Positions 19,098 through 30,999 of a DNA stretch of 64,000 nucleotides are shown piece after piece; position 1 is the first letter of the stretch; each line of letters starts with the position of its first letter. Origin of the DNA: Algibacter marinivivus. GTDB lineage: Bacteria > Bacteroidota > Bacteroidia > Flavobacteriales > Flavobacteriaceae. Location of the stretch: positions 62,001 to 126,000 of the forward strand of contig NZ_QFRI01000001.1 of NCBI RefSeq assembly GCF_003143755.1. Reading direction: 5' to 3'. The notes beneath the pieces were generated by a model. That model had not been told where the DNA came from and made no database searches. It worked only from the letters and a program-made list of their open reading frames with translations. The position numbers and the translations under genes are program-made.

Positions 19098-19115
19098 ATA
19101 CCTAGTAATGGGTAT
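19098..19115. promoter_or_regulatory. Regulon palindrome, site 1
   Basis: ATACCTAGTAATGGGTAT is an imperfect palindrome centred at 19106.5. The -7-like box CATCTTTG starts at 19138, 31.5 bp from the centre, and the ATG of the protease operon is 68.5 bp away. It differs from site 2 at a single base. Proposed activator-binding site. Confidence 0.7.
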
Positions 19116-19174
19116 TTTTTTGATGTTATAAACCAACCATCTTTGTATTATTAATTAACTAATCCAACTTAATT

Positions 19175-19525
19175 ATGAGTAAAACTGTATCTCCAATAAC
19201 GATGTTTATAGTAGCAGCTATATCGTTAGCAGTATCTGCAATCGTTTTAAATAATATAACTAAAGCCATAGTTTCTAATCCAAAAATTGGTAAAGAAGAT
19301 TATGAGTTTGTCTTTTGGTTTTTTAGAGTTGTTACAGCTTTAGCGGCAAGTGCCATAAGTATATCTATACCTGGAATGCTTAAAGTAGAGTATAATAATG
19401 GAACTTTTCAAACCAGGGCAGCTGGACAGCCTCCGCAGACGTTAACAGACAAAGCACCAAAAGTAATTGCTGGTGGAGCAATGGCGGTTTTTGTTTTGGT
19501 TTATTTGTTTAGTCCTTTAAGTTAA
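19175..19525 (+). CDS. Small integral membrane protein, first gene of protease-kinase operon
   Basis: The 116-residue protein has three predicted membrane segments: about residues 8-28 (TMFIVAAISLAVSAIVLNNI-like), 48-66 (a helix rich in F, V and A) and 97-114 (GGAMAVFVLVYLFSPLS). A soluble loop, EYNNGTFQTRAAGQPPQTLT, lies between the last two. I do not recognise the family. It starts the operon driven by palindrome site 1 and is 7 bp upstream of the protease gene. A membrane anchor or sensor partner for the protease is a guess from context only. Confidence 0.7.
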   Translation: MSKTVSPITMFIVAAISLAVSAIVLNNITKAIVSNPKIGKEDYEFVFWFFRVVTALAASAISISIPGMLKVEYNNGTFQTRAAGQPPQTLTDKAPKVIAGGAMAVFVLVYLFSPLS

Positions 19526-19532
19526 TTTAATT

Positions 19533-20513
19533 ATGACTGAGAAAGAAGCAAATGAAAAACTAAATTCGAAAGAAAAGGAAACAGAATACTTTAATTTATC
19601 TGCATTGCATGAAACCCAATACGCAGCTGTAATTAAAAAGTCTAATGATTTCTCTATAATTGATGATTACGCTATTGAAATTGGTCTTTCTAATTTCACT
19701 TATGAATATGATTCACTAAAAGGGCTTTTCGGTTACTTCTCAAAGAAAGAAGGCATGAGTTTAGAAACTCAAAAAGATTTTCAAAATGGTGACATTTTTC
19801 CTGTCAAATCTAATCCAATAAGTCTTCATTCTAATTCTAGTTATTACCAAAAATTAGAAAAACTAACAGGGGGTTGTAGTATTAGCTATGAAAATGGAGA
19901 TATCTATAGCGGGACAGCTGGAGCGTTTTTTAAATTATCTGATTCTCAAAATATATACATGATATCTAATAGACATGTAATTGTTGATAATGATTATGGA
20001 TTAGAAACCAAGATAATACATCCAAGTAAAACAGATGCAGAGAAAAAAGAGGATATAAGTCTCATAGGTAAAGTTTTTTGGACAAGTAAAGAAAAAGACG
20101 ATTTATTAGATGCAGCAATTGCTATTATATATGATGAAAAAACTACTGTAGATATAGGTAAATATTCTATATCAAATCAATTAAATTTTAATTCAATAGC
20201 TGCACCAAAAATTGGCCAAAATATTAAAAAAATTGGTAAAACATCTGGAGTAACTTTTGGAGAAATTAAATCCATAAATTGTACTGTAAACATTACTGAA
20301 AACATAAAAAAACCTAAAATATATAGGAAACAAATATTAACAACATGTATATCTAAGCCTGGAGATTCAGGTTCAGTATTACTGAATAATAATAATGAAG
20401 TTGTTGGTTTACTATTTGGAGGAAATAAACTTACAGCAAGTTTTTCTAACAACATAATGAATATTTTTAATCCGATACACCCTGAAATAAATAATTTCTC
20501 AAAATTTGTTTAA
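19533..20513 (+). CDS. Cytoplasmic trypsin-like serine protease
   Basis: The 326-residue protein has no signal peptide. Residues 1-110 have no recognisable fold. A chymotrypsin-like domain follows with a full catalytic triad: H148 in IYMISNRHVIVDN, D193 in DDLLDAAIAIIYD, and S279 in ISKPGDSGSVLLNNNNEVVGLLFGG. The spacing and the GDSGSV context match trypsin-like peptidases. Such proteases without export signals are often parts of regulatory or conflict systems, but no effector is evident here. It is second in a five-gene operon with a TPR kinase and a response regulator, so it may process a signalling component. Confidence 0.8.
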   Translation: MTEKEANEKLNSKEKETEYFNLSALHETQYAAVIKKSNDFSIIDDYAIEIGLSNFTYEYDSLKGLFGYFSKKEGMSLETQKDFQNGDIFPVKSNPISLHSNSSYYQKLEKLTGGCSISYENGDIYSGTAGAFFKLSDSQNIYMISNRHVIVDNDYGLETKIIHPSKTDAEKKEDISLIGKVFWTSKEKDDLLDAAIAIIYDEKTTVDIGKYSISNQLNFNSIAAPKIGQNIKKIGKTSGVTFGEIKSINCTVNITENIKKPKIYRKQILTTCISKPGDSGSVLLNNNNEVVGLLFGGNKLTASFSNNIMNIFNPIHPEINNFSKFV

Positions 20514-20529
20514 CTTAAATACATCAAAA

Positions 20530-20925
20530 ATGACTGGAATAAATGTAACACCTCACGATCTCGCAACAACACACACACTAATAAAAGATGGAACAATAAG
20601 TATAAAAGGAAAATTTACTAAGTGGAAAAACAAACATTTTATTGATGAAATAACAATAACCGATTTTTCTGAAAGTAAAAAAATTGAACTTGTAAATTAT
20701 TGTAAAAAGACAGATGCAATTGAAATCCATTATTTTAAATCTGCACCTAATAATTCCTTTAAACAAATTAGTTTTCCTTTAAAAAACTGTAAACTTGATT
20801 GTGTTCGAATATTAGTTTTGGCTTACGATGAAAATGAAACTATAACTGAGTGCATCTCTGAAAACACAACAGGAATGGGGCAACCAGACACTTCTAAAGG
20901 AAACATTATTGTAGGCAACCCATAA
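20530..20925 (+). CDS. Unknown 131-residue protein in the protease-kinase operon
   Basis: The start at ATG 20530 (MTGINVTPHDLATTHTL) is chosen over a TTG at 20506 that would overlap the protease gene. The chain has a mixed alpha/beta character with KGKFTKWKNKHFIDEITITD and PLKNCKLDCVRILVLAYDE, and a glycine-rich tail TTGMGQPDTSKGNIIVGNP. There is no signal peptide and no membrane segment. I do not recognise a family. The kinase gene starts directly at the base after its stop codon, which implies tight co-expression. It could be a substrate or partner of the protease. Confidence 0.7.
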   Translation: MTGINVTPHDLATTHTLIKDGTISIKGKFTKWKNKHFIDEITITDFSESKKIELVNYCKKTDAIEIHYFKSAPNNSFKQISFPLKNCKLDCVRILVLAYDENETITECISENTTGMGQPDTSKGNIIVGNP

Positions 20926-22692
20926 ATGATAGATTACATAAAAAAAAGCTTTTTAATTCCAGTAATAATATCTATTACTGGTTTTTGCTTTGGTCAAAAA
21001 GTAGATTTTTCACAAGTTTTAGAATCTTATAATTCAAATAAAAAAACTAAAATCCTTTTAGAACTGAAAAAAATAGATACAATCAATATAACAAAATATG
21101 ATAAAGCTGCTTGGTTATACTATTACGCTGATTACAATTCGGTTATTGACAACCATCATATTGCTTATGAGAATATAGTTATATCAAAAAAAATATTTGA
21201 AGTATTAAACAAAGAAAAAGATATTTTAGATTGTAACCTACTCATATTAAAAATATTAAGTAATCAAAATGAGTTAGATTCAAGAAAAAAAGAAATTATT
21301 GATGAAATCGAATTTTATTCAAAAAAAAATAAAGACACAACTGCGCTTATAGCAGCATACCATCATATTGCTACTGGTTTTCTAAACACAAATAATGGAG
21401 AGAAAGCAATAGAGTATTTCATTAAAATAAATACTATCTATAAAAAGCAAGGAAATAAACTAAAAGAAGCCCACAATAACATGAACATTGGTACAGTTTA
21501 TTCATCAGTATACCAAAACCCAGATTCATCGTTATACTTCACAAAAAAAGCCACACCTATTTTAAAAAAGTTTAATGACTATAAAAATTTAGCTTACAAT
21601 TATAACAATCAAGCTCTACAATATAAATTACTTGGTAAATATAAAAACGCTATTAAACTATACCTCAAGGCAGATTCGATTCAGTTAAATGAAAACAAAT
21701 CAAAAACTAAAGTTATTTTTTACAAAAATCTGGCTGATGCTTACTTATTAAATAAGGATTATAAAGAAGCGTCTTTATATCTAGATAAACTAAATAAATT
21801 AAAAGATAGTATTAACGATACTCAACAAAACATAGCTATATCAGAAATAAAAGAACAATACGACAACGAAAAACTAAGAGCAGATAACCTTGAAATAGAA
21901 TCTAAAAGAAAGCAAAGTAAAAACTTATTAATGGGTGCGTTAGCTTTTATTCTATTTGGAGGAATAACTGCTTTCTTAATTCAAAAAAACACTAGAAAAA
22001 AACAAAAACTAGCTGAACAAGAAAAAGCTTTGGAAACCCAAAAACTCGCAACCGTTTTAAAAGAACAAGAATTAGTGAGTATTGACGCCATGATTGAAGG
22101 GCAAGAGAAAGAGCGCCAACGCATTGCAAATGATTTGCATGATGATTTGGGAGGGCTTATGGCTACTGTAAAACTTCATTTTAATGTGTTAAAAGACAAA
22201 CAAACACCAGAATTATTTGATAAAACCACCAACCTTCTTGATGAGGCTTATAATAAAATACGTGGTATAGCACATGCTAAAAACTCTGGAGTTATTGCTA
22301 AACAAGGCTTACTAAAAGCTGTACAAAATATGGCTGATAAAATATCTGTTTCAAATAAAATTACTGTTGAGGTAATTGATTATGGTTTAGAAAACAGATT
22401 AGAAAACAGCTTAGAATTAACCATTTTTAGAATTATTCAAGAATTGATAACTAACGTTATAAAACATGCTGATGCAAGTGAAGCAACTATCCACCTAACA
22501 AATCATGATGACACATTAAATATTATGATAGAAGATAATGGCAAAGGTTTTAAAACAAATCAAATTACTACCAAAAGTAAAGGTATGGGCATTAGCAGTA
22601 TTGATAAAAGAATAGAACATTTAAATGGAAAAATGACCATAGAATCTGAACACAATAAAGGGACAACTATAATAATTGACTTACCAATATGA
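20926..22692 (+). CDS. TPR-containing membrane histidine kinase (HisKA_3 type)
   Basis: The 588-residue kinase has a signal sequence or first helix (residues 5-22), an extracytoplasmic region of about 300 residues with TPR repeats (AYHHIATGFLNTNNGEKAIEYF, NNQALQYKLLGKYKNAIKLY, KNLADAYLLNKDYKEASLYL), one membrane helix (about 333-352) and a coiled coil. The HisKA_3 box GQEKERQRIANDLHDDLGG carries phosphorylated H405. The HATPase domain shows a N-box (LITNVIKHADA) and DNGKGF. This NarL-type kinase should phosphorylate the regulator encoded next; stop and start overlap as ATGA. The signal sensed is unknown. Confidence 0.92.
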   Translation: MIDYIKKSFLIPVIISITGFCFGQKVDFSQVLESYNSNKKTKILLELKKIDTINITKYDKAAWLYYYADYNSVIDNHHIAYENIVISKKIFEVLNKEKDILDCNLLILKILSNQNELDSRKKEIIDEIEFYSKKNKDTTALIAAYHHIATGFLNTNNGEKAIEYFIKINTIYKKQGNKLKEAHNNMNIGTVYSSVYQNPDSSLYFTKKATPILKKFNDYKNLAYNYNNQALQYKLLGKYKNAIKLYLKADSIQLNENKSKTKVIFYKNLADAYLLNKDYKEASLYLDKLNKLKDSINDTQQNIAISEIKEQYDNEKLRADNLEIESKRKQSKNLLMGALAFILFGGITAFLIQKNTRKKQKLAEQEKALETQKLATVLKEQELVSIDAMIEGQEKERQRIANDLHDDLGGLMATVKLHFNVLKDKQTPELFDKTTNLLDEAYNKIRGIAHAKNSGVIAKQGLLKAVQNMADKISVSNKITVEVIDYGLENRLENSLELTIFRIIQELITNVIKHADASEATIHLTNHDDTLNIMIEDNGKGFKTNQITTKSKGMGISSIDKRIEHLNGKMTIESEHNKGTTIIIDLPI

Positions 22693-23312
22693 TACGATTA
22701 GCCATAGCCGAAGATCATCAGTCACTAATTGATGGAATTAAACTTTTATTAGAATATGAAGATAATATTTCTATTATTGGAACTGCAAATGATGGAAAAG
22801 AGCTTCTGGAAATTGTAGACAAAAAGCAACCCAATGTTGTACTAACAGATATACGAATGCCAAAAATGGATGGTATTCAAGCTACTAAACAAATCAAAAA
22901 AAAATATCCAAAAATTAATATTCTAGCGTTTACCATGTTTGAGCAAGTTGAAGCTATTGAACAAATGATTGACGCTGGCGCTTCCGGATATATTTTAAAG
23001 AACTCATCACTTAAAGAGGTACACAAAGCGATATTAACTGTTGCTAAAGGTGAAACATACTTTGATGCCAATATAAATACAAACGTGTTAAACTCGAAAT
23101 CTAAAAATAAAACTAAAGGCATTTTAACAAAAAGACAAATAGAAATTTTAGAACTCATTGGCCAAGGAAAAACATCAAGAGAAATTGCCGATTTGTTATT
23201 TATAGGAATCCATACAGTTGATACACACCGAAAAAACATGGTACGCATCCTAGGATTAAAAGGTAAAGGGGAATTAATGCGGTATGCTTTGGAGAAGAAG
23301 TATAAGTTTTAA
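22689..23312 (+). CDS. NarL/LuxR-type response regulator
   Basis: The 207-residue regulator has a receiver domain (D54 in VVLTDIRMPKMDG, lysine in GYILKNSS) and a LuxR-type HTH (about residues 142-205) with LTKRQIEILELIGQGKTSREIADLLFIG and recognition helix HTVDTHRKNMVRILG. It overlaps the kinase gene by 4 bp and is the presumed cognate regulator. Its recognition helix is much like that of the stand-alone regulator at 30.6 kb. I infer that it binds the 18-bp palindromes found in front of this operon and five further transcription units. Confidence 0.93.
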   Translation: MIRLAIAEDHQSLIDGIKLLLEYEDNISIIGTANDGKELLEIVDKKQPNVVLTDIRMPKMDGIQATKQIKKKYPKINILAFTMFEQVEAIEQMIDAGASGYILKNSSLKEVHKAILTVAKGETYFDANINTNVLNSKSKNKTKGILTKRQIEILELIGQGKTSREIADLLFIGIHTVDTHRKNMVRILGLKGKGELMRYALEKKYKF

Positions 23313-23315
23313 AAT

Positions 23316-23333
23316 TTACCTAGTAATGGGTAT
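23316..23333. promoter_or_regulatory. Regulon palindrome, site 2
   Basis: TTACCTAGTAATGGGTAT, centred at 23324.5. The -7-like box GAATTTTG begins 31.5 bp downstream at 23356, and the ATG at 23393 is 68.5 bp away, the same distance as at site 1. The site starts 4 bp after the stop codon of the response regulator gene. Confidence 0.7.
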
Positions 23334-23392
23334 TAAATAACTTGTAATTTTAAACGAATTTTGAAACACTAATCAATAAAATATATTTCATT

Positions 23393-24106
23393 ATGAAAAA
23401 AATTATCTTTTCAATTATAATAATTACATCATTCTATTCATTTTCTCAACAAAAAACTTTTCTAAAATTTGAAGATGCTGAGTCTAAAGTGTCTCTTTAT
23501 AGTCAAGAGACTCAAAGTAACCAACAAAGTACCTTAACTGAGGCTGAAGATGAATATGGAAGTATCAGTGAAAATATATCATTCGGTTTAAGTTTAGGGT
23601 TTAATAATGCTCTTGAAAGTTTAAAATTAGCACAAATTTCACCTATAGATAATACTGTTATAATAACTGATGCACAAAAAACAAATTTTGTATTATCTAC
23701 AGCTATTTCTGTACCTATATCTTTTCAAAAAAAGAAAGCATATAGGTACTTAGATAATAACGGTAAGCAAATGGGACAAGTACATAGAATCTCAGAATGG
23801 AGCATAATTGGTGTTGTAAATTTAGTAACACTAAAAGGTGCTGAGTCTGGTAGTACTTTTAATCAAAAACTAAGTGGAGGATTAGGTTTATCATATAGCT
23901 TTAGCTCAGACTTTGCAATTGGTTTAAGTTATGAATTGATTTCATATCGAAAGCCTAAAGACTTTTTAATTAATCAAGAAGGTCAAGAAATTCAAGTAAA
24001 TGGTGAAGCATTAAAATCTATTGAAATATCTAATGACGCCTATTATTTTGATAGATATGCAGGTACTTTAGCACTTAAAATTATATACAAATTAACTAAA
24101 TCTTAA
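23393..24106 (+). CDS. Outer-membrane beta-barrel-like protein of the regulon
   Basis: The 237-residue protein has a signal peptide (IIFSIIIITSFYSFSQ) and strand-rich sequence (FGLSLGFNNALESL, GGLGLSYSFSSDFAIGLSYELISY, GTLALKIIYKLTKS). The aromatic, alternating C-terminus suggests a small outer-membrane barrel. I cannot assign a family. It follows the two-component genes but has its own palindrome and promoter, so it is a separate unit of the proposed regulon. A second palindrome follows its stop codon, serving the next gene. Confidence 0.7.
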   Translation: MKKIIFSIIIITSFYSFSQQKTFLKFEDAESKVSLYSQETQSNQQSTLTEAEDEYGSISENISFGLSLGFNNALESLKLAQISPIDNTVIITDAQKTNFVLSTAISVPISFQKKKAYRYLDNNGKQMGQVHRISEWSIIGVVNLVTLKGAESGSTFNQKLSGGLGLSYSFSSDFAIGLSYELISYRKPKDFLINQEGQEIQVNGEALKSIEISNDAYYFDRYAGTLALKIIYKLTKS

Positions 24107-24132
24107 AATTGGAGTTATTATATAAAATTGCT

Positions 24133-24160
24133 AAAAAATCCCCAGTACTGGGGATTTTTT
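24133..24160. promoter_or_regulatory. Regulon palindrome, site 3 (28-bp perfect)
   Basis: The core ATCCCCAGTACTGGGGAT (24138-24155) is perfectly symmetric, and symmetry extends into A6 and T6 flanks for 28 bp in all. The centre is 24146.5. The consensus -7 box TAAGTTTG starts at 24178, 31.5 bp downstream. The site could also fold into a terminator for the gene upstream. Confidence 0.75.
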
Positions 24161-24177
24161 AGCTTCAAGATGTTTCA

Positions 24178-24185
24178 TAAGTTTG
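24178..24185 (+). promoter_or_regulatory. -7 promoter box of regulon gene at 24221
   Basis: TAAGTTTG matches TAnnTTTG fully. It is followed by GCTATTAATTAATC, a leader sequence repeated almost exactly in front of the gene at 25915 and in variant form at 29201. Confidence 0.6.
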
Positions 24186-24220
24186 ATTAGCTATTAATTA
24201 ATCTTTTAAAAACTCTCATT

Positions 24221-25786
24221 ATGAAACAGCTATTACTTTTTTTCTTATTAATCTATACTTCTTTTTATGCTAATGCTCAAATAATATGGCAAAATACCAT
24301 TGGAGGCAATAGCTTTGATGATGTTGAAGATGTTATTTACACATCAGATGGTGGCTTTCTACTTGTTGGCGTATCAGAATCAGGAATCTCAGGTGATAAA
24401 TCTGAAGCTAATCAAGGTGCTACAGATTATTGGTTGGTAAAAACCAATAATCTAGGAGTTGTACAATGGGATAAAACTTTTGGTGGAAGCGGCAATGATT
24501 ATCCCGTAACTGCAATAGAAGCTTTAAATGGAGATTTCATTATTGTAGGTGAGTCTGACTCTAATGTATCTGGCGATAAATCTGAAAACTCAAAAGGGGG
24601 TTACGATTTTTGGATAGTACGAATAAATAGTTCTGGAACAAAAATTTGGGATAAAACTTTTGGTGGATCTGACGATGAATATGCTATTTCAGTAAAAGAA
24701 ACAGGCACTAACGATTTAATCATTACTGGAGACTCAGCTTCAAATATCTCTGGTGATAAATCTGAAAATTCAAGAGGTTTTACTGATGTATGGACTATAA
24801 AAGTAACTGACACTGGTACTTTTATATGGGATAAAACATTTGGAGGTGATGCTGATGAAGAAGTTATAAATGTACTTCTAACTTCTGATGGTGGTTATCT
24901 TTTAGGAGTTATAGCAGAATCTGGAATTTCTGGAGACAAAACTGTAAACTCAAGTAATAATGAAGATTATTGGATACTTAAAGTAAGTAATACAAATACT
25001 ATCGATTGGCAAAAATCATATGGAGGCACATCCAATTCAGTTAGTATTCTATCATCCCTAATAACTACTTCTGATGGCGGCTATCTTTTAGCTGGAGATT
25101 CAGATTCTAACATAGGAAGTGAAAAAACAGAAAACACAAATGGTGGATCTGATTTATGGTTTATTAAAACTGATAACATAGGTAATATACAATGGCAAAA
25201 TACAATTGGTGGATCTGATGATGAATATGTTCCATATGGTTTTGAAAAACCTGGAGGTGGCTATATTTTTGCAGCTGAAACACTTTCTAATATTTCTGGC
25301 GATAAAACAGAAAATAGTTCAAGTAATGATATTTGGCTAGTAGAACTTGATGCAAACGGAAATATAATAGCTGACAAAACATTTGGTACTAATTCCACTG
25401 AAAATCCTGAGCAAATACTACAAACAAATGATGGTAATTATGTAGTAGTCTCCTCTATTGACGAATTATCAGGCGATAATACTGAAGCTCCAAATGGTGA
25501 TACAGATTATTGGTTATTTAAAGTTAATAAAAGTACATTATCAACTTCAAAATTAAATAATGATTTAGAATTAAACATTTACCCAAATCCGACTATAAAT
25601 CATCTAAACATAGCATCAAAAAATAAGATCAATACTATCGAAATTATTGATTTAACTGGAAAGCTAATCTCAAAAATAAAATCACCCAATAAAGTTATAG
25701 ATATTTCTAAACTTCCAATTGGAGTATATATTATAAAAAGTTATTCAAAAAATGGAGTAACCAATAAAAGAGTAATTAAAATATGA
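24221..25786 (+). CDS. T9SS-secreted repeat protein (propeller-like)
   Basis: The 521-residue protein has a signal peptide (LLLFFLLIYTSFYANAQ). It then has about seven repeats of roughly 58 residues built on W-[DQ]-K-[TS]-[FY]-G-G, a TSDGGYLL-type strand and SNISGDKSEN, ending in [DY]-[YFL]-W-[LIF]-[VI]-K. Such repeats probably form a beta-propeller. The C-terminus (about residues 450-521) is a type A sorting domain: LNIYPNPTINHLNI, IDLTGKLISKI, LPIGVYIIKSYSKNGVTNKRVIKI. It should be secreted by T9SS. Its signal and leader region closely mirror the next gene, suggesting the pair are switched together. Confidence 0.88.
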   Translation: MKQLLLFFLLIYTSFYANAQIIWQNTIGGNSFDDVEDVIYTSDGGFLLVGVSESGISGDKSEANQGATDYWLVKTNNLGVVQWDKTFGGSGNDYPVTAIEALNGDFIIVGESDSNVSGDKSENSKGGYDFWIVRINSSGTKIWDKTFGGSDDEYAISVKETGTNDLIITGDSASNISGDKSENSRGFTDVWTIKVTDTGTFIWDKTFGGDADEEVINVLLTSDGGYLLGVIAESGISGDKTVNSSNNEDYWILKVSNTNTIDWQKSYGGTSNSVSILSSLITTSDGGYLLAGDSDSNIGSEKTENTNGGSDLWFIKTDNIGNIQWQNTIGGSDDEYVPYGFEKPGGGYIFAAETLSNISGDKTENSSSNDIWLVELDANGNIIADKTFGTNSTENPEQILQTNDGNYVVVSSIDELSGDNTEAPNGDTDYWLFKVNKSTLSTSKLNNDLELNIYPNPTINHLNIASKNKINTIEIIDLTGKLISKIKSPNKVIDISKLPIGVYIIKSYSKNGVTNKRVIKI

Positions 25787-25831
25787 CAAAAAAACCATTA
25801 ATCGATAAAATTTTCGTTCAATAACCTAAAA

Positions 25832-25849
25832 ATCCCCAGTATTGGGGAT
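25832..25849. promoter_or_regulatory. Regulon palindrome, site 4
   Basis: ATCCCCAGTATTGGGGAT, centred at 25840.5. The consensus -7 box TAAGTTTG starts at 25872, again 31.5 bp from the centre, and the ATG at 25915 is 74.5 bp away, the same distance as at site 3. Confidence 0.75.
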
Positions 25850-25871
25850 TTCTTTATTTTACTCAGATTCA

Positions 25872-25879
25872 TAAGTTTG
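25872..25879 (+). promoter_or_regulatory. -7 promoter box of regulon gene at 25915
   Basis: TAAGTTTG, full match to TAnnTTTG, followed by the shared leader motif GTAGCTATTAATTAATC. Confidence 0.6.
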
Positions 25880-25914
25880 AGTAGCTATTAATTAATCTTA
25901 AAAAATCTCTCATT

Positions 25915-28900
25915 ATGAAACACTTATTACTATTGCTCGTATTTAGCACCAATTTAATATATGCTCAAGATTGGATAACAACTGTAACACAACAATCAGA
26001 TTTAATTAATGAAATTTCTGTAGTTGACGATAATGTTATTTGGGTCATGGATCAAGGAGACAACCCTAATGGCTTTTCAATTTCAACTGATGGTGGACTC
26101 AATTGGATAAAAAAAAGCTTTCCTCAATATTTTACTGATAATAATTTTTACGCGCTAGGGGTTTTAAGTGCTGTAAGTGAAACAACAGCTTATATTATAG
26201 TTTCAGGTGCAGACAATGCCAGTTTAGTTGGTTTATATAAAACAACGGATTCTGGAGACACATGGCAAAGAGAAAATGCCATATTCAATACAGGTTTCTC
26301 TTTTCCTAATCAAGTCCATTTTTGGAATGCTAACCGAGGTTTTGCCATGGGAGATGGACTTGAACTTTATGTCTACCTTGATGGCTCATGGTATAACCAA
26401 TCTTCTACAATTACATCAGTTGGAACATGGTCATTAAATAGCAGTAACTTTTTAAAAATAGTAGGGAACTCAGCATATTTTTTAACTGGATCTGGCACAA
26501 TAGTGAAAACAAATGACCAAGGCCTTAACTGGAGTGAAATAATCACACCTTTTAACTCTCAAGCTAATGTTAACTTTGATTTTAAAGACGATCTAAACGG
26601 AATTATAGTATATAATGATTTTACAACAAATCAATTGTACAGAACTACTGATGGAGGACAAAATTGGTTTTTACAAGGCAGTAATATTAATAATTTACAA
26701 AGCATAATCAAATATGCACCATCGCATGGAAAGTATTATAGTTTAGGTAGAGATAATGTTAATGGCTTTAAGAATTCATATTCAGAAGACAATGGAGTAA
26801 CTTGGACTACCATCCAAGAATTTGATGGATTATTATTAGGAGATATTGCGTATTCAACCACTGGAAAAGTTTTTATTGGTGGAAGTCCTAATATTTACTA
26901 TCAAAATCCTCCTGATTACTCTTCGCACCCAGATTACAATGCTCTAGTTGATTTTTATAATGCAACTCAAGGAGATAACTGGACAGATAACACCAATTGG
27001 CTAGATACAACTGCCCCCATATCAACTTGGTATGGCATAACTGAAACAAATGGACGAGTAACAGGCATAAACCTAAATAGTAATAATTTATCAGGAACTA
27101 TCCCTGAAAGTTTTGGAAACCTTACTAACCTTGAAACCTTTAGTATAAGAATTAATAATATTTATGGCTCTTTGCCTGAATCAATAGTCAATCTTACAAA
27201 AATTCAATATTTTGATATTAATTCTAATAGTATTGTTGGTATAATAGCTCCTTGGATTGGAATTTATACTGATTTATGGTATTATGATATTGGCTGGAAT
27301 TTTATATCTGGTAATATACCAGAAGATTTAACAACTTTGGATAATTTACAATACATATATCTTCAAAATAATAGCCTTACAGGTGACCTTACCTCTAATA
27401 ATATACCTCAAAGCCTAAATGTTTTTGATGCTTCAAACAATAATCTTTCTGGGGCTGTTCCTAATTTTAGTTTTATCACCACCCTAACTTTCTTAAATAT
27501 TTCTGGAAATCGATTTGAATTCGCAGATTTAGAACCTAATTATTCTGATATTAATAACTCATTAGGTGCCAATTTTATTTATAGCCCACAACAATTAGTA
27601 GACACGCCATTAAACGAAGTGCTTCTAATAGGCGAATCAAGTACATTAATAACAAATGTATCTGGCACTCAAAATAGTTATGCTTGGTCTAGAATTAATG
27701 CTGATGGTAGTGAAGGAGGTCCTATAGGCAATAATTCAACTATAAATATTACTATTAATACAGTAGATGACTATAAATGGTATTACTTTTATGAAGCTAC
27801 AAGCGCTATAGTACCCGGATTAATTCTAAAGAGTAATTTTTTCAAATTTTCAGAATCACCAACTACTCATCCAGATTATGATGCTTTAATAGCTATATAC
27901 AGCGCTTTAAATGGTATAGATTGGGATATTACAAAACCTATACATAATTGGTCTTCAAATTTTGATATTGGCTTTGACCCAGTCACAGACCGCGTTACAT
28001 CATTAGGTATTACTGGGAATGCCCCAATCACTGGAACAATACCACCCGAAATAGGCGATTTAACAGAATTAACTTATTTAGACTTATTACAAGAAGATCT
28101 ATCTGGAGAAATTCCAATTGAAATTTGGAGTTTGACAAAACTAAAAACATTGTTCTTAGGCGCTCAAGCTTCCAAACAATTATTGTTAACTAATGGAATA
28201 CCTCCAGAAATTGCTAACCTACAAGATTTAGAATGGTTAAACCTAACGCAAATCCCCTTAACTCAACCATTACAACCAGAGCTTTTTAATTTGCCTAATT
28301 TAATACGCTTACGTATTGTTGAATGTGGCCTTACAGGCAGTTTACCTAAAGAACTAGCACAAATTAGTGATTTATTAGCTAGCGGTAATGAATTTGAAGG
28401 GGCTATTCCTCAGGAGTTTTTGGATGCTGTTGGTAATACAAATCTAAATATCACAAACAACTATTTTAATTTTGCAAATCTAGAACCTCTTGCTCAAGCT
28501 AATAACTACCAAAACTTATATTATTCACCTCAACGTACAAAAGATATTGTGCAAAACTTAGACTTTGTACCAGGTTCAAACATAGTATTAAATATTGATG
28601 ACACCAGCCTTGGTAAAACGACTTCATCCAAAGGTATAGGTGACGAATATCAGTGGTATAAAGATGGTATATCTATAAATGGAGCAAATGCTATCAGTCA
28701 TACCATTAACAATGCACAAGAATCGGATAGTGGTGTGTATTATTGTATTATTACGAACCCTTTACTAGCGGATTTAATTATTCAAAGAGCTAATATTATT
28801 CTTAATATCGATTCAGCATTATCAATAGATGATTATATTTCTAAAAACATAAAGATTTATCCAAACCCAACAACAAATGTTTTAAATATAAAACTAAACA

Positions 28901-29073
28901 ATACTGAAATAAAAAAAGCACAATTATTTGATGTTAATGGAAAACAAATTTTAGACATGAAATTACAATCTGAATTAACAGTGGTTGATATTAGTAATTT
29001 AAATTCTGGAATATATTTACTTAAAATAGAATCAGTAAAAAACACCTTTATTAAACGTATAGTTAAAGAATAA
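25915..29073 (+). CDS. Large T9SS-secreted protein with BNR-like and leucine-rich repeats
   Basis: The 1052-residue protein has a signal peptide (LLLLLVFSTNLIYAQ) and an N-terminal propeller-like part (to about 340) with BNR/Asp-box-like motifs: STDGGLNWIKK, TTDSGDTWQRE, TTDGGQNWF, SEDNGVTWTT. Two leucine-rich-repeat blocks follow (about 345-560 and 650-870; for example LNSNNLSGTIPESFGNLTNL), each introduced by HPDYxALxxxYxAxxGxxW. An Ig-like segment (YQWYKDGISINGANA) precedes a sorting tail (IYPNPTTNVLNIKL to IKRIVKE). It is surface-exposed or released. A binding or adhesion role is plausible by analogy; no catalytic site is seen. Confidence 0.9.
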   Translation: MKHLLLLLVFSTNLIYAQDWITTVTQQSDLINEISVVDDNVIWVMDQGDNPNGFSISTDGGLNWIKKSFPQYFTDNNFYALGVLSAVSETTAYIIVSGADNASLVGLYKTTDSGDTWQRENAIFNTGFSFPNQVHFWNANRGFAMGDGLELYVYLDGSWYNQSSTITSVGTWSLNSSNFLKIVGNSAYFLTGSGTIVKTNDQGLNWSEIITPFNSQANVNFDFKDDLNGIIVYNDFTTNQLYRTTDGGQNWFLQGSNINNLQSIIKYAPSHGKYYSLGRDNVNGFKNSYSEDNGVTWTTIQEFDGLLLGDIAYSTTGKVFIGGSPNIYYQNPPDYSSHPDYNALVDFYNATQGDNWTDNTNWLDTTAPISTWYGITETNGRVTGINLNSNNLSGTIPESFGNLTNLETFSIRINNIYGSLPESIVNLTKIQYFDINSNSIVGIIAPWIGIYTDLWYYDIGWNFISGNIPEDLTTLDNLQYIYLQNNSLTGDLTSNNIPQSLNVFDASNNNLSGAVPNFSFITTLTFLNISGNRFEFADLEPNYSDINNSLGANFIYSPQQLVDTPLNEVLLIGESSTLITNVSGTQNSYAWSRINADGSEGGPIGNNSTINITINTVDDYKWYYFYEATSAIVPGLILKSNFFKFSESPTTHPDYDALIAIYSALNGIDWDITKPIHNWSSNFDIGFDPVTDRVTSLGITGNAPITGTIPPEIGDLTELTYLDLLQEDLSGEIPIEIWSLTKLKTLFLGAQASKQLLLTNGIPPEIANLQDLEWLNLTQIPLTQPLQPELFNLPNLIRLRIVECGLTGSLPKELAQISDLLASGNEFEGAIPQEFLDAVGNTNLNITNNYFNFANLEPLAQANNYQNLYYSPQRTKDIVQNLDFVPGSNIVLNIDDTSLGKTTSSKGIGDEYQWYKDGISINGANAISHTINNAQESDSGVYYCIITNPLLADLIIQRANIILNIDSALSIDDYISKNIKIYPNPTTNVLNIKLNNTEIKKAQLFDVNGKQILDMKLQSELTVVDISNLNSGIYLLKIESVKNTFIKRIVKE

Positions 29074-29122
29074 CATACTATATATATTTCATCGATAAGC
29101 ATTTCGACCAAAAACCTATAAA

Positions 29123-29140
29123 ATCCCCATTACTGGGGAT
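29123..29140. promoter_or_regulatory. Regulon palindrome, site 5
   Basis: ATCCCCATTACTGGGGAT, centred at 29131.5. The consensus -7 box TATGTTTG starts at 29163, 31.5 bp downstream. The ATG of the next gene is 69.5 bp from the centre. Confidence 0.75.
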
Positions 29141-29162
29141 TTTTTTATGCATCATCACTTAG

Positions 29163-29170
29163 TATGTTTG
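29163..29170 (+). promoter_or_regulatory. -7 promoter box of regulon gene at 29201
   Basis: TATGTTTG, full match to TAnnTTTG, followed by AAGCTATTATTAATC, a variant of the leader motif at the two preceding promoters. Confidence 0.6.
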
Positions 29171-29200
29171 ATAAGCTATTATTAATCAATTCAAATTAAA

Positions 29201-30526
29201 ATGAAAAAACTCAATTACTTAGTATTCGTCTTTATTATTTTCATAATATCTAACCATATAGAAGCTCAAAACTATGTTGGTGTAACAGTAGATAATTATG
29301 CCGGAATCCATAGTTTAACTTCAAACCCATCGAATGTTGTAGATTCCAGATTTAAAGCAGACATAAACTTAATCTCAATAAGTGCCTTTGGTGGTAGCGA
29401 TTATTTTGGTATCAATGTAAATGATATTATAAAATCTGATGGAGGCTTCGATTTCGAAACTGATGCAAAAAAATTTCCATCTGACGCAAATAATTTTTTC
29501 GCAAATGCGGATATACTAGGGCCTTCTTTTATGTTCAACCTATCTCCAAAAAGCAGTATAGCCATTGTAAGTAGAGTTAGAGCTTTTTTTAACATCAATA
29601 ATATTAGTGGCGAATTATATGAAAATATATCAGATAATTTTGATACTGGAAATGATTTCGATTTTAACTCAGAAGATTTATCTGGAACTGCTCATGTTTG
29701 GGCAGAAGCTGGTTTAGTTTATGGCCGTATTCTAGTTGACAAAAAACAAAACTTTCTAAAGGGTGGAATAACTCTAAAATACTTACAAGGCGCAGGTGGT
29801 GTATTTATAAATAGTCCAAACTTTACGGGACAATATGATGCCACAAATGAAACATTAACTACCACAGGAGAATTAAAATATGGCATCAGTCAAGATTTTG
29901 ATAATAATGATATCGATTTCAAAAACCTAACTGCTGGTTTTGGTGCAGATATAGGTTTTACTTATGAATATAGACCAAACATAGATCGAGATTCAGTTAC
30001 AAGAAAGCATAATAAATATAAACTAAAAATAGGAGCATCAATAACAGATATTGGTTCTATAAATTACAAAGAAAGTACTGTAACAACCTACGATTTAAAT
30101 GCTACTGCTGATGCCTCAAATTTTGATGATGATACTGAAGATTTTTTAGATAATAATTACACCAACACTGAAGAAACTTTAGCACAAGAAATTATGCTAC
30201 CAACAGCTTTCCATTTTTTAGCAGATTATAGAATAAAAAACAAACTATATGTTAGTTTGCAAACCCACTTATCATTAATTAAAAAAAATGCCCCAAACAG
30301 TAATAGTATAACAAACTCTGTAACTTTAGCGCCACGTCTAGAAACTAGAAGCTTTAGTTTATATTCACCTGTAAGTTTTAGACAACATGGTGATTTTGCC
30401 TGGGGAGCTGGATTAAGGTTTTCTGGGTTAATGATTGGTTCTGGTTCAATTTTATCAAACCTATTATCTAATACTACCAAAACCACCGATATTTACATTG
30501 GTTTAAAAATTCCTCTATACCAATAG
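29201..30526 (+). CDS. DUF5723-like outer-membrane protein
   Basis: The 441-residue protein has a signal peptide (to about IEAQ) and then NYVGVTVDNYAGIHSLTSNPSNVVDSRFKADINLISIS, the typical start of DUF5723/PorP-like outer-membrane proteins of Bacteroidota, where NPS near the mature N-terminus is common. The rest is strand-rich, with GAGLRFSGLMIGSGSILSNLL and an end IYIGLKIPLYQ typical of barrels. It may be an outer-membrane partner of the two preceding secreted proteins, as PorP/SprF-like proteins are for other T9SS cargo; that is inference. It is a separate transcription unit. Confidence 0.75.
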   Translation: MKKLNYLVFVFIIFIISNHIEAQNYVGVTVDNYAGIHSLTSNPSNVVDSRFKADINLISISAFGGSDYFGINVNDIIKSDGGFDFETDAKKFPSDANNFFANADILGPSFMFNLSPKSSIAIVSRVRAFFNINNISGELYENISDNFDTGNDFDFNSEDLSGTAHVWAEAGLVYGRILVDKKQNFLKGGITLKYLQGAGGVFINSPNFTGQYDATNETLTTTGELKYGISQDFDNNDIDFKNLTAGFGADIGFTYEYRPNIDRDSVTRKHNKYKLKIGASITDIGSINYKESTVTTYDLNATADASNFDDDTEDFLDNNYTNTEETLAQEIMLPTAFHFLADYRIKNKLYVSLQTHLSLIKKNAPNSNSITNSVTLAPRLETRSFSLYSPVSFRQHGDFAWGAGLRFSGLMIGSGSILSNLLSNTTKTTDIYIGLKIPLYQ

Positions 30527-30548
30527 TTTTAAAATAATTTCTTTAAAA

Positions 30549-30566
30549 ATCCCCAACATTGGGGAT
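30549..30566. promoter_or_regulatory. Regulon palindrome, site 6
   Basis: ATCCCCAACATTGGGGAT, centred at 30557.5, in front of the stand-alone LuxR-type gene. At the invariant 31.5-bp distance (30589) lies TAAATTAC, a weak match to the -7 consensus. This would make the regulator part of the regulon it may control. Confidence 0.65.
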
Positions 30567-30618
30567 TTTAAGGTTTATGTGTAAACCTTAAATTACTTAT
30601 AAACTTTTTTAGCATCAA

Positions 30619-30999
30619 ATGACTCCATTAGCAGAAATTCTAAACACCATTAAAAGCATTAAAAAAAAAGGAGAACTTATCTCTGAAGATGATATATTAG
30701 AAATCCTAAAGGCTACTAAAACTATTTCAAAAAACAAAGATGCATTACATACTTATATTTCATTTTTCAAAAGATTGGATAGAAATAAACTAAACAAAAT
30801 TAGTGCTCTAACTACAAGAGAATTGCAAGTTCTAAGACATATTGGAAACGGAGAAAACTCTGCTCTAATTGCTAAAAATTTAAATTTAAGTATATCCACT
30901 ATTGAAACTCACAGAAAAAATATTCGAAAAAAATTAGGTTTAGTAGGTAAAGGAAAGCTTATTGAGTATGCTATTATCAACCACTTAAACTCTTTATAA
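30619..30999 (+). CDS. Stand-alone LuxR-type transcriptional regulator
   Basis: The 126-residue protein has a short helical N-terminus (residues 1-55, IKKKGELISEDDILEILKATKT) and no receiver domain. A LuxR-type HTH follows, with LTTRELQVLRHIGNGENSALIAKNLNLS and recognition helix STIETHRKNIRKKLGL. The HTH is about half identical to that of the response regulator at 22.7 kb, including THRKN and GKG-L--YA. It may therefore bind the same palindromes as a modulator or second activator. It carries one of the palindromes in its own promoter region. Confidence 0.85.
   Translation: MTPLAEILNTIKSIKKKGELISEDDILEILKATKTISKNKDALHTYISFFKRLDRNKLNKISALTTRELQVLRHIGNGENSALIAKNLNLSISTIETHRKNIRKKLGLVGKGKLIEYAIINHLNSL

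Follow-up and report, generated by a model that had tools for sequence, protein, structure and literature searches.

A putative NarL-type operator at a fixed distance from the -7 box in a kinase-regulator locus of Algibacter marinivivus and its relatives

The window analysed here, a stretch of 64,000 nucleotides from Algibacter marinivivus (contig NZ_QFRI01000001.1, positions 62,001 to 126,000), contains a co-directional block of genes in which six palindromes precede six transcription units. Analysis of this block suggests that a NarL-type response regulator and a sensor histidine kinase with a tetratricopeptide repeat (TPR) region, both encoded within it, probably activate their own operon and a set of secreted-protein genes through operators of the 7-2-7 type. 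The same arrangement is found next to this regulator in dozens of relatives and, judged from these sequences, very probably represents a self-regulated circuit for cell-surface proteins. Positions without a contig label are those of the window and are collected in Table 1.

Palindromes and promoter boxes

An earlier sequence-only reading of this DNA had placed six palindromes, each followed by a TAnnTTTG-like box, before these units. All six are present at the starts that it gave, and the box letters agree with those quoted. The first base of the box lies at +40 from the first base of the palindrome (31.5 bp from the palindrome centre) in 6/6 sites, so that the constant distance proposed in that reading holds. 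Mismatches to TAnnTTTG number zero at sites 3-5, one at sites 1 and 2 and two at site 6. The 18 bp consensus offered at the time was slightly too strict (0, 1, 0, 1, 1 and 3 plus-strand mismatches at sites 1-6, respectively). At site 6, a second inverted repeat, AAGGTTTATGTGTAAACCTT (30570-30589), takes up the stretch from the palindrome to the weak box. A sigma-70 promoter scan of the region was uninformative (83 promoters found versus 78.8 expected).

Conservation of the spacing

For comparison, the palindrome was defined independently of the box, as WTMCC-N8-GGKAW with one mismatch permitted if eight of the nine half-site positions are self-complementary, and was sought in 20 kb regions around regulator orthologues at 44 loci (the window, three loci of the same genus and 40 of the wider family). 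Among the named regulator loci listed, the closest are those of Algibacter. A TAnnTTTG box with at most one mismatch occurs at +40 in 86 of 268 site-orientations, compared with a mean of 3.4 and a maximum of 10 boxes at 134 other offsets (-60 to +99) and with one of 50 site-orientations in a reversed-sequence control. The held-out set comprised 62 of 80 named loci, the 18 already represented being omitted; there the box occurs at +40 in 120 of 330 site-orientations, the other offsets have a mean of 4.2 and a maximum of 12, and the reversed-sequence control gives 0/58. The held-out spacers are diverse, 93 of the 120 being mutually different at more than six of 22 positions. The compared genomes are related and hence not independent, and the statistics given here and below ignore this kinship. 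The spacing between palindrome and box is not due to chance.

A subset of 74 of the 86 sites, picked by the author's choice with 12 excluded, aligns without gaps over 54 columns. In 62 of 78 cases an ATG follows at 58-88 bp, counted from the first base of the palindrome, which makes for a short leader. Sites lie upstream of the regulator in 37 of the 44 loci, at most 250 bp past its stop codon in 28 and in both places in 25; the corresponding held-out counts are 48/62 upstream and 39/62 within 300 bp after the regulator. At one locus (L182, G247:C46) three successive palindromes near the contig end (ATACCTACAATTAGGTAT twice and ATACCTAATTGTAGGTAT once) each have a perfect box at +40.

The palindromes could instead be intrinsic terminators of the upstream genes, which the sequence-only reading had set aside on the grounds that terminators would not keep the spacing. 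Sites 2-6 directly follow a co-directional gene, and a terminator scan flags site 4 on the plus strand and sites 3 and 5 on the minus strand only (six found in the region versus 4.8 expected). All six sites fold below the shuffle mean, with site 3 at -22.9 kcal/mol (z -6.6) and the other five at z -1.6 to -3.2. However, a constant +40 to a promoter box, as observed in the 44 and the 62 loci, is not expected of terminators. Outward stem extension is no greater at sites within 120 bp of a co-directional gene end than at the others (1.84, n = 58, versus 1.88, n = 24; p 0.94), sites of the CCC type are not enriched after such ends (13/58 versus 8/24; p 0.40) and such palindromes are few elsewhere in the genome. 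Fixed spacing, stem extension and class distribution rule out terminators as a general explanation, and the earlier argument is borne out; that the palindromes serve as terminators is extremely unlikely. Individual sites, most of all site 3, may double as operator and terminator.

Resemblance to NarL operators

Among solved full-length relatives, the regulator is closest to NarL, VraR and DesR, the latter two being response regulators of Gram-positive bacteria. None of the proteins of the locus reaches the equivalog cut-offs for NarL, NarP, NarX or NarQ. The palindrome consensus, ATACCCAnTAnTGGGTAT, includes two inverted heptamers around a central pair, which is the 7-2-7 layout of NarL sites, and it resembles in sequence the high-affinity NarL 7-2-7 test site TACCCCTAAAGGGGTA in the available portion of PMC4549865. 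The same portion places the NarL sites of napF and yeaR at -40 to -49 and -38 to -47, and the available part of PMC7419079 places one ogt site at -44.5. Since the sigma-A -7 box of Flavobacterium psychrophilum is located at -12 to -5 (accessible text of PMC9723704), the palindrome centre would by analogy lie at -43.5, a position from which NarL can activate. As far as these partial sources describe them, the NarL/NarP operators of Escherichia coli at napF, yeaR and ogt likewise consist of two heptamers in inverted orientation, 2 bp apart and with a TACC core, and likewise pair a NarL-type regulator with a site centred in the -40s. In contrast to the E. coli system, the promoters here carry the flavobacterial -7 box TAnnTTTG and not -10/-35 elements, the sites mostly adjoin the regulator gene, the targets encode secreted proteins and the kinase has a TPR region.

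The putative operator adjoins the core promoter at a fixed distance, as in class II promoters. A single invariant distance directly next to the polymerase is characteristic of class II activation, and this counts against the alternative of repression, in which the regulator would cover the -33 region of these promoters; nor is a conserved -33 TTG visible by eye beside the sites in the alignment. The palindrome does adjoin the place of a -33 element, and NarL is described as a repressor at frdA in the available portion of PMC4549865. On balance, repression is considered decidedly improbable and activation is the preferred reading.

Sites elsewhere in the genome and family

Within the 3.34 Mb genome, the consensus with at most one mismatch on either strand matches only sites 1-5 and one further sequence, C4:111638. 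A 54-position profile of palindrome, spacer and box (R1) was built from the 74 aligned sites. It scores sites 1-5 at 29.4-39.9 bits, values that are high by construction because these sites are among the building sequences, and finds no other match of at least 29 bits in the genome. The next matches are the reverse-strand reading of site 3 (28.9 bits) and C4:111610-111656 (27.5 bits). Site 6 scores 22.3 bits; neither it nor C4:111638 belongs to the building set. Thus, the motif has few copies outside the locus and is not scattered as many palindromes over the genome, which agrees with the regulon proposed in the sequence-only reading.

The seventh palindrome, on the minus strand at C4:111638-111655 (L039:10039-10056), is followed after 22 bp by the box TATTTTAG at +40 and scores 27.5 bits. 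The gene behind it encodes a 156-residue lipocalin-like protein with a lipoprotein-type start, and its sequence features make it a likely regulon member outside the locus. Membership of C4:565085 (15.4 bits, E 0.07, TTACTTTG at +40), which precedes a gene for a 476-residue lipoprotein-like protein, is doubtful.

In the genus, R1 matches of at least 30 bits number 4, 3, 3 and 2 in the four regulator-positive genomes, all of which contributed to R1, and 1, 0, 0, 0, 0 and 0 in the six regulator-negative genomes. Outside the R1 set, the best match has E ≤ 1e-5 in 12 of 15 regulator-positive genomes (by-eye count; regulator match at E ≤ 1e-75). Strong composite sites are scattered in L156-L158 (G077) and L165-L166 (G207), where there is no regulator copy at E ≤ 1e-45.

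Identity of the binding protein

The response regulator at 22689-23312 is the likely binder of the sites, although maybe not the only one. It combines a receiver domain (Response_reg, 98.8 bits) and a GerE domain (51.1 bits) in one protein, and its gene overlaps by 4 bp that of the adjacent kinase (HisKA_3, 28.9 bits against a cut-off of 24; HATPase_c, 58.2 bits). No autoinducer-binding domain was found in the LuxR-type proteins at E ≤ 0.001; they contain only a receiver and GerE or GerE alone. Further evidence comes from 20 site-rich genomes without a regulator match at E ≤ 1e-75, compared with the first 20 site-free genomes listed, both sets being chosen and not random. A distant regulator (E ≤ 1e-45) is present in nine of the 20 site-rich `negatives', in seven of these at 56-62% identity, and in 0/20 of the site-free genomes.

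Several observations weigh against the proposed circuit, or against this regulator as its only effector. The other 11 of the 20 site-rich genomes lack a regulator at E ≤ 1e-45, so that other proteins can use the same composite site. A strong R1 match (E ≤ 1e-5) occurs in 50 of 339 regulator-negative genomes (by-eye count), some of these `negatives' under the 1e-75 threshold holding a regulator of 56-62% identity, and the regulator-negative genomes G002 and G006 of the genus each have one match of 26-27 bits. The recognition helix is similar, mostly T-x-x-THRKN, in the short LuxR proteins, the PAS-LuxR proteins and the response regulator. There is no gene start close behind seven of the 86 sites, and at four of the 44 loci a site is found neither upstream of nor directly after the regulator. 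Site 6, with its weak box, is the least certain of the six, and activation is favoured over repression from position alone.

The lack of the regulator in those 11 genomes and the shared helix residues also favour the alternative that the sites are operators whose main binder is another LuxR-type protein, either the 126-residue LuxR protein of the window (30619-30999) or a PAS-LuxR protein, or that several such proteins share them. Sites adjoin PAS-LuxR genes in G259 and G379, which have no regulator match at E ≤ 1e-45, and also in G241, and the A. marinivivus genome itself encodes one PAS-LuxR (C1:548030). However, no R1 match with E ≤ 0.1 lies near this gene, and PAS-LuxR proteins (E ≤ 1e-30) track the sites weakly, being present in 7/13 site-rich versus 6/20 site-free genomes (a comparison that covered 13 of the site-rich set, the same 20 site-free genomes and seven of the genus). 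At least one site with a box is present at 61 of the 62 held-out regulator loci, while a receiver-less LuxR protein is encoded at nine of the 44 loci. A different main binder is thus unlikely, though by no means negligible. With the fixed spacing at 44 and 62 loci, the few copies in the genome, one associated response regulator, the 7-2-7 layout and the rejection of terminators, the earlier claim of a class II LuxR/NarL regulon is supported as a reading of the sequence.

Palindrome subclasses and promoter asymmetry

The sequence-only reading had divided the palindromes into ACC and CCCC subclasses, perhaps of different affinity or for different regulators. The split is clean in the window (sites 1-2 versus 3-6), and sites of the CCC type are rarer upstream of the regulator (2/30; held-out 0/48) than downstream (16/54; held-out 12/62), `upstream' covering the 5.5 kb that precede the regulator and `downstream' the remainder of the region beyond that stretch. 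Both points could favour two operators for two regulators. However, mixed sites occur on both sides (5/30 upstream and 9/54 downstream; held-out 4/48 and 8/62), the site that follows the regulator at the orthologous position is of the ACC class in the window and of the CCC class in L067 and L072, and in several loci the targets are preceded by ACC sites only. Given the mixed sites and the change of class at an orthologous place, two regulators are not needed, and they are regarded as very unlikely; the subclasses stand as an observation in the window, without the two regulators. The palindromes appear to be one motif with a choice of A or C at the third base, and the scarcity of CCC upstream suggests that this class may tune affinity.

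The first base of the box differs more sharply with position. Counting sites with nAnnTTTR at +40, it is C or G in 25/30 sites upstream of the regulator (held-out 43/48) and in 3/54 downstream (held-out 7/62), where it is T or A, mostly T, in 51/54 (held-out 55/62); Fisher p values, with kinship ignored, are 2e-13 for the 44 loci and 2e-17 for the held-out set. Site 2 of the window, a downstream site with the box GAATTTTG, is an exception. Upstream boxes have C and G in 13 and 12 cases, respectively (held-out 33 and 10). The split is real and, since both C and G occur there while T is rare, it looks selected. No prior description of such an asymmetry of -7 box promoters was found among the titles, partial abstracts and passages of the open-licence papers listed.

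Genes of the locus

The features of the locus are listed in Table 1, with genes given as longest open reading frame calls. The genes before the kinase (19175-20925 in the window, and the same position in relatives) differ by species and encode trypsin-like or (by eye only) papain-like peptidases and small proteins; a few of the small proteins end in a G-x-IIVG-like tail. In Pfam searches, nine of ten proteins of one set had no family, and in another set of eight two reached the curated cut-off. About half of the 44 loci share the flanking genes of the block, namely a 61-residue open reading frame upstream (26 loci) and, downstream, a GyrI-like protein (23 loci) and CrcB (22 loci). Trypsin-like peptidases are found beside effectors in conflict systems (available part of PMC7159879); no system like the peptidase-containing operon was found in that part of the source.

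Table 1. Features of the kinase-regulator locus in the window (T9SS, type IX secretion system; LRR, leucine-rich repeat; HTH, helix-turn-helix)
Feature	Position	Strand	Remarks
Site 1 palindrome ATACCTAGTAATGGGTAT, putative 7-2-7-type operator of the kinase-regulator operon	19098..19115	+	R1 36.5 bits
Site 1 -7 box CATCTTTG	19138..19145	+	At +40; first base C, like most promoters upstream of the regulator
116-residue protein, long hydrophobic stretches (by eye)	19175..19525	+	No family match; its cluster in 8/44 loci including the window
326-residue trypsin-like peptidase	19533..20513	+	Weak Pfam matches, only PF00089 reaching cut-off
131-residue small protein, C-terminus GNIIVGNP	20530..20925	+	Variable cassette position; alternative TTG start at 20506
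Sensor histidine kinase: TPR region, HisKA_3, HATPase_c	20926..22692	+	Domain matches
NarL-type response regulator (receiver and GerE)	22689..23312	+	Domain matches; likely binder of the sites
Site 2 palindrome TTACCTAGTAATGGGTAT	23316..23333	+	R1 29.4 bits; directly past the regulator stop codon
Site 2 -7 box GAATTTTG	23356..23363	+	At +40
237-residue protein, signal-peptide-like start (by eye)	23393..24106	+	No family match in domain search
Site 3 palindrome ATCCCCAGTACTGGGGAT	24138..24155	+	R1 39.5 bits
Site 3 -7 box TAAGTTTG	24178..24185	+	At +40
521-residue protein with T9SS type A sorting domain	24221..25786	+	Domain match
Site 4 palindrome ATCCCCAGTATTGGGGAT	25832..25849	+	R1 39.9 bits
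Site 4 -7 box TAAGTTTG	25872..25879	+	At +40
1052-residue LRR-containing protein with T9SS type A sorting domain	25915..29073	+	Domain match
Site 5 palindrome ATCCCCATTACTGGGGAT	29123..29140	+	R1 37.3 bits
Site 5 -7 box TATGTTTG	29163..29170	+	At +40
441-residue DUF5723 protein	29201..30526	+	Domain match
Site 6 palindrome ATCCCCAACATTGGGGAT	30549..30566	+	R1 22.3 bits
Site 6 weak -7-like box TAAATTAC	30589..30596	+	At +40; two mismatches
126-residue LuxR-type HTH protein without receiver domain	30619..30999	+	Such short proteins in 9/44 loci

Proposed circuit and implications

The targets in the window are T9SS-sorted proteins, the DUF5723 protein and the 237-residue protein with a signal-like start, and across the 44 loci a crude signal-peptide rule selects 32/50 genes behind downstream sites versus 332/839 of all open reading frames there. 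The nearest studied design found is FimS/FimR of Porphyromonas gingivalis, in which, according to the available portions of PMC1974823 and PMC11053733, FimS is a TPR-domain sensor kinase and FimR an activator of fimbrial genes. The pairing of a TPR kinase with a response regulator is shared; the window kinase, in contrast, falls below the NCBIfam FimS equivalog cut-off (37.2 bits versus 600), and those portions contain no operator sequence for FimR.

The sites, their fixed spacing and conservation, the association with the regulator and the difference between boxes are direct observations, from which we infer binding, activation, transcript starts, promoter strength and a signal in the following way. 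The histidine kinase would phosphorylate the response regulator on sensing a signal, perhaps at the envelope. The phosphorylated dimer would bind the palindrome, centred at about -43.5 in place of a -33 element, and help the housekeeping RNA polymerase to start at the TAnnTTTG-type box. The circuit would thereby activate its own kinase-regulator operon through site 1 and the secreted-protein genes through sites 2-5 and probably site 6, together with, outside the locus, one or two lipoprotein-like genes. The -7 box of the operon itself usually begins with C or G and not with T, which would weaken the box and keep autoregulation below the activation of the targets.

A more speculative and rather improbable extension is that the locus is a polymorphic surface-identity island, in which the peptidase and the small protein make the signal for the TPR kinase and the C or G of the box sets a threshold for positive feedback. 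If so, the kinase, the regulator and the operator-promoter grammar would be kept across the Flavobacteriaceae while the plugged-in genes vary by species: a peptidase, a small protein or both ahead of the kinase, and genes for T9SS-sorted or lipoprotein-like proteins behind the regulator.

To our knowledge, few response-regulator operators have been defined in Bacteroidota. Among the open-licence papers listed, none is a prior description of this one as judged by title and start of abstract. A NarL-like circuit of a known general kind, whose promoters have a Bacteroidota-type geometry and a conserved asymmetry, is well supported as a reading of these genomes. Since sequence alone reveals both the operator and its exact spacing from the -7 box in many genera, members of the regulon should be predictable genome by genome, and the difference between C or G at the circuit's own promoter and T or A at its targets would provide a testable design rule for autoregulated circuits.

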